NCBI RefSeq assembly: GCF_001437355.1
Contig: NZ_JQBM01000002.1
Span: 1 to 64,000, forward strand
DNA: 64,000 bases
Reading direction: 5' to 3'
Origin: Weissella viridescens
Lineage (GTDB): Bacteria; Bacillota; Bacilli; Lactobacillales; Lactobacillaceae
Shown: piece by piece, positions 61,367 through 62,156 of the stretch
Layout: the number at the start of each line of letters is the position of its first letter
How positions within the stretch are numbered: the first letter of the stretch is position 1
Notes under the pieces: generated by a model
What the model was told of the DNA's origin: nothing
Seen by the model: only the letters and a program-made list of their open reading frames with translations
The model's database searches: none
Position numbers and translations under genes: made by a program

Positions 61367-61849
61367 ATGCCAAATAATAAACATGAAAGTCTTATTTTTA
61401 CAATTATGATGTGCTTCGTCATGGTTTTGGGGATGAGTCTATACAATGCCTACTTAATTCAGGGGCAAGTGTCAGCCGCCATGGTGAGCCAAGCCTGGTT
61501 GGGATTCCCATTTGCCTATATTGTCGCGATGGCCCTGGATGTGCTCGTTGTGTCCAAGAATGCTAAGACAGTTGCTTTTAAATATATTATTAAGCCGGAA
61601 CAGTCACAAGCAGTTAAAGGGATTACCATCTCAATCTGTATGGTGATTCCAATGGTGATTTGTATGTCAGGTTATGGTGCTGTCATAGGTGCGCTTCATA
61701 CCGGTATTTGGCAGGATCTGGTGGGACAGTGGATAAACAATATCGGGAAGAATGTACTTGTCGCATTGCCCTTACAATTGTTAATTGCTGGGCCGCTTGT
61801 ACGTAAGACTTTTAGACGTGTCTTTCCAGTTGGGGTCATCCAAGGCTAA
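61367..61849 (+). CDS. DUF2798-family membrane protein
   Basis: A 160-residue protein of two DUF2798-type repeats, each a pair of membrane segments (IFTIMMCFVMVLGMSLYNAYL and ISICMVIPMVICMSGYGAV start them; AWLGFPFAYIVAMALDVLVV and NVLVALPLQLLIAGPLVRK end them). Function unknown. GGAGG lies 7 bases before the ATG. Confidence 0.85.
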   Translation: MPNNKHESLIFTIMMCFVMVLGMSLYNAYLIQGQVSAAMVSQAWLGFPFAYIVAMALDVLVVSKNAKTVAFKYIIKPEQSQAVKGITISICMVIPMVICMSGYGAVIGALHTGIWQDLVGQWINNIGKNVLVALPLQLLIAGPLVRKTFRRVFPVGVIQG

Positions 61850-61930
61850 ATGAGATTTAGATGAGGATATTGACATATAATTATAAAATGCGTTAAACTT
61901 GTAAACATAAACTTTTAGGAGGTAGGATCA

Positions 61931-61936
61931 ATGTAA
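61931..61936 (+). other. Start-stop minimal ORF (ATG-TAA) with strong SD
   Basis: AGGAGG, 8-base spacer, ATG directly followed by TAA. The spacing is ideal, so ribosomes should initiate and terminate at once. It lies 54 bases before the first switch hairpin. Confidence 0.6.
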
Positions 61937-61942
61937 TATTCA

Positions 61943-61987
61943 ATGGTAACAGTTGAATCATTTAAGGGCTTTACGTTTTTTGGGTAA
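61943..61987 (+). CDS. Possible 14-residue leader peptide
   Basis: MVTVESFKGFTFFG, whose ATG is 7 bases after the start-stop TAA and whose stop codon is 2 bases before the first hairpin arm. It has no SD of its own and would need re-initiation after the start-stop pair. A ribosome at its stop would cover the first arm and favour termination. Confidence 0.4.
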   Translation: MVTVESFKGFTFFG

Positions 61988-62156
61988 CTATCCGAAATTT
62001 ATGTAAAGTCTGTTTACGTGAACTTTCGGATGTTGAATCCGGAAATGTTTACGTGCATTGAACTACTTTAAACAAGTAAGCCAACGTGAGTAAGTGTGCC
62101 GGATTCTAACGATTAATCCGTCGCACTTTTTTTATGATTATTTTAGGAGAATTTAT

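Follow-up and report, generated by a model that had tools for sequence, protein, structure and literature searches.

A candidate aromatic leader-peptide attenuator of the his-operon type upstream of an amino-acid permease gene in Weissella viridescens

An ATG codon followed at once by TAA, placed at a good distance from a Shine-Dalgarno sequence, is an unusual way to open the leader of a transporter gene, and the question raised by this locus is what the pair does there and to what the leader behind it responds. The pair lies in a 64,000-nucleotide stretch of Weissella viridescens DNA (the window, meaning the whole stretch analysed), in a leader between a gene with a DUF2798 match and a gene for an amino-acid permease (Table 1). 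The original prediction took it for the entry element of a three-state RNA switch. Read directly, the sequence contains every element claimed: the Shine-Dalgarno sequence and the start-stop pair, a 14-codon frame ending two bases before the ATCCGAA with which hairpin A begins, and the RNA arms further downstream. What they most probably amount to is a ribosome-mediated transcription attenuator of the six-segment type known from the his operon, with an aromatic leader peptide, which would derepress genes for aromatic amino acids when charged phenylalanine or tyrosine (or tryptophan) tRNA is scarce. In this genome a nonsense codon may have broken that control.

Table 1. Positions of the leader elements, neighbouring genes and one related gene
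Feature	Position	Strand	Remark
Upstream neighbour, 160-aa protein	61367-61849		DUF2798 match, 31 bits
Candidate sigma-70-type promoter, TTGACA - 18 nt - TAAACT	61870-61899	+	10 of 12 consensus matches
Shine-Dalgarno sequence AGGAGG	61917-61922	+	8 nt 5' of ATG 61931
Leader-peptide ORF, ancestral frame	61931-61987	+	18 codons and stop; M-stop-Y-S-M-V-T-V-E-S-F-K-G-F-T-F-F-G-stop
Codon 2 nonsense TAA	61934-61936	+	Follows ATG 61931-61933
Remaining 14-codon leader frame	61943-61987	+	From in-frame AUG codon 5 to TAA 61985-61987
Segment 0, control codons (F-T-F-F-G, 61970-61984)	61966-61985	+	From minimum-energy folds; partner is segment 1 if untranslated
Segment 1 (ATCCGAA...)	61990-62007	+	5' arm of hairpin A; reachable by a ribosome at the stop codon
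Segment 2	62013-62031	+	Arm common to hairpin A (1:2) and hairpin B (2:3)
Segment 3	62037-62055	+	3' arm of hairpin B; antiterminator is 62032-62052 with segment 4
Segment 4	62090-62106	+	5' arm of terminator; alternative partner is segment 3
Segment 5	62115-62133	+	3' arm of terminator, and U-tract
APC-superfamily amino-acid permease (BcaP-like), 467 aa	62157-63560	+	Candidate regulated gene; from profile matches
D-2-hydroxyacid dehydrogenase behind FFWFF leader (genome G011)	L210, 75-1061	-	

The leader peptide and its second codon

Close orthologs of the permease (at least 67% identity) were found in 20 of 28 Weissella genomes. The leader stands before 16 of them, this genome included, and is absent from the other four (L011, L023, L024 and L025). 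A seventeenth leader was found in G004 before a permease cut to about 33 codons; the leader peptide there is intact (L041, around 1462-1900). Promoter-like sites were no more frequent than expected (2 found, against a shuffle mean of 2.0), and the TTGACA of the candidate promoter is present in the relatives G027 and G016 too. The sequence 5' of the leader in G016 differs from that of this genome. The Shine-Dalgarno sequence is AGGAGG in G027 and AGGGGG in G016.

The 14-codon frame and the ATG-TAA pair belong to one reading frame, which is open in both of these relatives: G027 encodes MQHSMVTIESFKGFTFFG-stop and G016 MQNSMMTIESFKGFTFFG-stop. Counted from the ATG of the pair, the ORF of the family has 18 codons with the pattern MQ...F-x-x-F-T-[FY]-F-G-stop. 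Codon 2 is CAA or CAG (glutamine) in 16 of the 17 permease leaders and TAA in this genome alone, which is also the only one in which the ORF is interrupted. Because of these glutamine codons the start-stop pair is, on the comparison of sequences, either a nonsense codon in second place of a leader peptide or a mistake in the assembly. The entry element that had been proposed is thus kept in one of 17 homologous leaders, and as a conserved element it is ruled out. Leader starts were picked by CA or TA at codon 2; a list of ORFs based on Shine-Dalgarno sequences, which makes no such assumption, agrees with them except in the W. confusa group, where an additional in-frame ATG lies three codons upstream. 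Codon 5, six nucleotides past the TAA, is methionine here and in G027, G016 and G026, and may serve this genome as a site at which translation of the leader restarts.

The codons before the real stop are strongly aromatic. Over the last eight codons of 17 distinct leaders, a subset of the loci read from which G026 and others lacking the canonical stop were left out, 87 of 136 residues are aromatic (57 F, 26 Y and 4 W), against a background of 10.4% of 1218 residues in four proteins of the window. Since TTT, TTC, TAT, TAC and TGG are all in use, the aromatic run cannot be put down to a single U-rich motif in the RNA. The reading frame and the aromatic end are kept, and the N-terminal half of the peptide is variable. 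The best profile of the permease is that of a branched-chain permease (NF053761 BcaP, 534.6 bits, below the cut-off of 690; PF13520, 202 bits), whereas its leader has phenylalanine codons. A branched-chain attenuator, as the gene name would suggest, is ruled out by the near absence of the corresponding codons from the leader ends, with one valine and neither leucine nor isoleucine among the 136 residues. From these ends and from the candidate aromatic-pathway genes behind related leaders, the sensed signal is most likely charged aromatic tRNA, phenylalanyl-tRNA first in the case of the permease.

Three leaders have lost the stop two nucleotides before segment 1, namely those of the G026 permease (L009), the G003 aminotransferase (L203) and the G011 dehydrogenase (L210); each runs on for several codons and keeps its aromatic run.

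Alternative pairings and the proposed switch

The leader is unusually stable as RNA. The fold of 61915-62156 reached -71.8 kcal/mol; 200 shuffles averaged -48.6 (sd 4.3), and none was as low (z -5.4). An intrinsic terminator before the permease gene was found by folding (stem 62093-62105/62115-62127 and U-tract), with hairpin energies of -14.7 to -30.6 across 16 leaders; a simple terminator scan did not list the terminator of this leader. When a ribosome was masked in the folds, hairpins A (61990-62007/62013-62031) and B (62015-62031/62037-62055) appeared with their common arm, and AATCCGG at 62036-62042 is complementary to CCGGATT in the 5' arm of the terminator, both as originally described.

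That description lacked a further hairpin. In this one, 0:1, segment 1 pairs with the codons for Phe-Thr-Phe-Phe-Gly (UUUACG...UUYGG with CCGAA...CGUAAA), so that segment 0 consists of the last codons themselves. Hairpin 0:1, and not hairpin A, is the predicted default of the ribosome-free leader, which leaves B and the terminator; the full-length minimum is 0:1, 2:3 and 4:5. The leader accordingly has six segments, with 0:1, 2:3 and 4:5 (terminator) mutually exclusive with 1:2 and 3:4 (antiterminator). Segments 1, 3 and 5 bear ATCC-type blocks and segments 2 and 4 GGAT-type blocks. Segment 1 starts two nucleotides after the stop position in all 17 leaders, with the motif ATCCGAA, or TTCCGAA in G026, where the stop itself is lost. 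Automatic picks of segment 4 were wrong for G026 and G020, and the stop-to-segment-1 gap and the other segments were used.

Stage-wise ensembles were computed for the 16 leaders before a full-length permease. The ribosome was represented by masks that ran, in keeping with its footprint, up to about 15 nt beyond the first P-site base. When it stood on the aromatic codons, 1:2 formed before segment 3 was made, and 1:2 and 3:4 once segment 4 was made (16/16). With a ribosome at the stop codon, 2:3 formed before segment 4 was made, as did 0:1 and 2:3 with no ribosome (16/16 in each case). At equilibrium, with segment 4 made and segment 5 still missing, 3:4 outweighed 2:3 in eight of the 16 leaders when a ribosome stood at the stop and in 11 of the 16 when there was none, this leader being included both times. 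Termination in these two situations therefore needs 2:3 to form first and to last until segment 5 is made. In this model the terminating outcome is dependent on folding kinetics, and the equilibrium result speaks against a purely thermodynamic switch.

A stricter equilibrium score for joint switching was compared, leader by leader, with 60 dinucleotide shuffles of the spacer. This leader passed, and so did six others among 12 permease leaders (0/60 shuffles each) and one of six non-permease leaders (1/60 shuffles reaching it), the rest failing; in one of these six the terminator had been wrongly placed. The G004 leader is among those that passed, so the score is not specific, and it counts as modelled support for this leader and not for all leaders. 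The 2:3 helix found in related leaders is all but missing from G004 (0.4 expected pairs), which hints that its RNA may be decaying after loss of the permease, although segment 2 pairs there with other downstream sequence and the score is passed.

From the ORF, the possible pairings, their conservation and the related gene set we infer a scheme of stalling, folding order, read-through, amino-acid specificity and re-initiation. A ribosome would translate the Phe/Tyr-rich ORF while RNA polymerase copies the leader. When charged phenylalanyl-tRNA is scarce (in relatives, also tyrosyl- and tryptophanyl-tRNA), the ribosome would stall on the aromatic codons and mask segment 0; 1:2 would then pair, segment 3 would capture terminator arm 4, and transcription would run on into the permease gene (state 1). 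When the aromatic tRNAs are charged, the ribosome would reach the stop and cover segments 0 and 1, so that 2:3 would form first and 4:5 after it (state 2). An untranslated leader would fold into 0:1, 2:3 and 4:5, and transcription would end (state 3). The permease would thus be made when aromatic amino acids are short. In this genome the TAA at codon 2 means that translation would have to restart at AUG codon 5, or the switch would be locked in state 3.

Conservation of the pairings in relatives supports two claims made for this leader from the beginning, that alternative RNA pairings control an intrinsic terminator before the permease and, at the level of the model, that a ribosome at the small stop codon covers hairpin A and so favours B and termination. 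Pairs were counted in an alignment of 12 leaders (11 distinct) of the other clade; the four leaders of the group of this genome (G000) had been misaligned by MAFFT in the 2:3 loop and did not enter the count. Of 495 cells, 97.0% can pair in the state 0:1/2:3/4:5, as can all 253 cells of the state 1:2/3:4; when slid by 1 to 3 columns they reached at most 46.3% and 47.6%, respectively. One site changes jointly in segments 2, 3, 4 and 5, from C-G-C-G to U-A-U-A, which is what importance of both sets of helices would predict; five of the 11 distinct sequences, all from the same clade, have the change, and it may have arisen only once. Six pairs of the terminator state are changed on both sides (3.7 in shuffles, the count being reached in 30 of 500), as is one pair of the antiterminator state (reached in 425 of 500 shuffles), in which 18 of 23 pairs are invariant. 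Further pair types showed no excess over shuffles in this alignment, and the covariation lends the pairings modest support.

Constraint on the leader shows in the comparison of this genome (G000) with G027. Between their permeases 124 of 222 fourfold sites have changed, and 13 of 467 amino acids; between their leaders, 10 of 203 bases. Of these ten differences, three (including the one that makes the TAA) fall in the first half of the ORF, which encodes the N-terminal part, one in the 2:3 loop (62033), one in the spacer (62079) and five in the terminator loop; F-T-F-F-G and helices 0:1, 1:2, 2:3 and 4:5 are unchanged. Positions 62033 and 62109 fall in a 3-bp extension of 3:4 predicted for this genome. 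Judged by these sequences the leader has been under strong constraint, which does not date the TAA.

It is possible, if somewhat unlikely, that the attenuator is dead in this one genome, the codon-2 stop abolishing translation of the leader and leaving the permease always at its basal level. This is compatible with the attenuator proposed for the family, and has a precedent in the Salmonella his leader, in which, according to the excerpts of PMC4046918, the operon can no longer be induced once codon 5 is a nonsense codon. Against it are the AUG six nucleotides past the stop and the intact main stems, control codons and permease, although their intactness leaves the mutation undated. The TAA is a natural experiment on the effect of an early nonsense codon on an attenuator.

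It is improbable that the codon-2 stop is itself functional, so that ribosomes would have to terminate on a one-codon ORF and re-initiate beyond it before the leader is read, and the switch would combine re-initiation with charging of phenylalanyl-tRNA as a joint input. If this were so, evolution would have changed the input of the switch, by way of release, ribosome recycling and initiator tRNA, and left its RNA part untouched.

Control by an arrest peptide is quite unlikely. Here, as in TnaC, which is arrested with tryptophan, the nascent F-x-F-F-[GR] end would bind a free aromatic amino acid and arrest the ribosome at the stop, covering segment 1 and causing termination. The peptide end does lie directly at the stop, its distance to segment 1 is constant, and the F and G/R residues show good conservation. 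However, other residues vary (T, W, K or G; and G, R or D at the end), ordinary release at the stop is sufficient for the geometry, and the G026, G003 and G011 leaders combine a lost stop with a retained aromatic run.

Very unlikely is a switch that uses ATG-TAA as its entry and senses initiation, release or re-initiation, as was first supposed. It would account for the optimal spacing of the Shine-Dalgarno sequence and for the in-frame AUG six nucleotides past the stop, and the main stems are the same as in G027. Yet 16 of the 17 permease leaders have a glutamine codon at that place, and the codons just before the real stop stand largely for aromatic residues. Moreover, by the general footprint rule, the cover of a ribosome positioned at 61931-61936 would end near 61946, short of both segment 0 and segment 1.

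Related leaders and the genes behind them

A covariance model was built from 17 of these leaders, which match it by construction. With these included, it gave 31 matches in 18 of the 28 Weissella genomes (E up to 0.1). Seventeen of these stand before the permease or what is left of it, seven before a class I aminotransferase, six before a PF13303 protein and one before a D-2-hydroxyacid dehydrogenase, identities that rest on a profile test of one protein of each kind and on the translations of the others. Leader ends are aromatic in all three further groups, for example SYYFWFFG before an aminotransferase, KYYFWFFR and YFTFGFFR before PF13303 proteins and SFFWFFR before the dehydrogenase (E 0.024). 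In the genome from which the window comes a single copy is convincing; the two other matches there have E values of 4.6 and 5.2.

The aminotransferase tested is close to NF005588 (510 bits, cut-off 576), a model whose former name we take to have been 'aromatic amino acid aminotransferase'. PF13303 (PTS_EIIC_2) membrane proteins lie behind aromatic leader peptides at L005, L198-L202 and L204, in several Weissella. Their position suggests that they carry aromatic compounds, not sugars.

Among 397 genomes of the family the model matched nine more, all of one other genus (g17), which we infer to be Leuconostoc. At all eight loci of this genus that were read, an aminotransferase of this kind follows the leader, whose peptide ends, for example, in NFYFKYFG or QFYFWYFG. 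Among 395 genomes of the order, none outside the family matched (three genomes matched, all within it); both searches used stricter filters, and may have missed weak relatives. A pattern scan of the 397 genomes of the family, with two mismatches allowed, matched 20 genomes, six of them outside the genus. The reversed pattern gave eight matches in seven genomes, so these six are no more than chance would give; the five loci of them that were read all proved to be other sequence without the arms. A relaxed DNA pattern occurred in at least 116 stretches of the genome contigs. Of the 116 listed, 22 had a downstream GGAT arm, an upstream methionine and at least four aromatic residues among the last eight; all 22 were from Weissella, and some belong to genomes already included in the genus comparison.

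Rfam 15 gave no match at gathering thresholds anywhere in the window, and at E up to 10 the leader drew only two unrelated ones (E 3.6 and 3.7). Membership of a T-box or of the Rfam leader families (His_leader, Phe_leader, Trp_leader, Leu_leader and others) is ruled out by the lack of a covariance-model match. A T-box or some other ligand- or protein-binding riboswitch with an incidental small ORF is thus hardly credible, even though histidine genes in this order, those of Weissella among them, are commonly preceded by His-specific T-boxes (excerpts of PMC9413887), as the ORF keeps its frame and aromatic end despite a variable N-terminal half.

In Lactobacillus, Weissella and Leuconostoc, phenylalanine is converted to phenyllactate via phenylpyruvate in two steps, by an aromatic aminotransferase and a lactate dehydrogenase (PMC8778586, in excerpt). 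The aminotransferase and the dehydrogenase behind the leaders fit this route from phenylalanine over phenylpyruvate to phenyllactate, and together may outline a candidate phenyllactate regulon. For Weissella and another genus of its family (presumably Leuconostoc), the leaders thereby suggest a candidate regulon for aromatic amino acids that would be controlled by leader-peptide attenuation, within an order in which T-boxes are the described rule for histidine genes. It would link the permease, the PF13303 membrane proteins, the aminotransferase and the 2-hydroxyacid dehydrogenase to phenylalanine and tyrosine, that is, to the formation of phenyllactate, which is relevant to food fermentation, and it offers substrate predictions for two families of transporters.

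Comparison with known attenuators

The leader has the features of a leader-peptide attenuator in its short ORF with a Shine-Dalgarno sequence 5' of a terminator (before 16 of the 20 close orthologs, with the codon-2 interruption here), in the run of aromatic codons next to the first hairpin and in its mutually exclusive helices, which the equilibrium tests bore out in part. No description of it was found in the open-licence literature, nor of any such leader for aromatic amino acids in Weissella or Leuconostoc. The pheA and trp leaders of E. coli have runs of phenylalanine or tryptophan codons, a four-segment layout and biosynthetic genes behind them; the codon runs are alike, and the Weissella leader is set apart from them by its layout and genes and by the absence of an Rfam match.

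In Gram-positive bacteria, leader-peptide attenuators of Firmicutes have been described for histidine and leucine (PMC2965389, PMC9413887 and PMC5794164, each in excerpt). The His-leader attenuators of the Bacillus cereus group and others resemble the present leader as Gram-positive attenuation where T-boxes are otherwise used (excerpts of PMC2965389 and PMC9413887), but differ from it in amino acid, lineage and gene set. The ilv-leu leader of Staphylococcus aureus, another Gram-positive attenuator of this sort, likewise combines a leader peptide rich in control codons with an intrinsic terminator; unlike the Weissella leader, it has leucine and isoleucine codons, an antiterminator that pairs with the U-tract and another set of genes (excerpts of PMC5794164). 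A stop inside its leucine-rich peptide arose under selection, and its authors predict relieved repression (same excerpts), whereas the codon-2 stop here is predicted to prevent induction unless translation restarts.

The nearest counterpart is the his leader of Salmonella and E. coli, and it removes the claim that no described class has this layout. In the parts of PMC4046918 that bear on it, the untranslated his leader forms A:B and terminates, a stalled ribosome gives B:C and D:E, a ribosome that has finished gives the terminator E:F, and a nonsense codon at position 5 leaves no induction. The six segments, the untranslated default that ends in a terminator, the two alternative hairpins given by a stalled ribosome and the control codons before segment B all have their predicted equivalents in Weissella. 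The differences are that the Weissella leader has aromatic instead of histidine codons and no covariance-model match, that the leaders precede single permease, aminotransferase or dehydrogenase genes and not a biosynthetic operon, and that they belong to Firmicutes and not to Proteobacteria. On this comparison of sequences the leaders appear to form a new family of an already known kind, the his-type attenuator.
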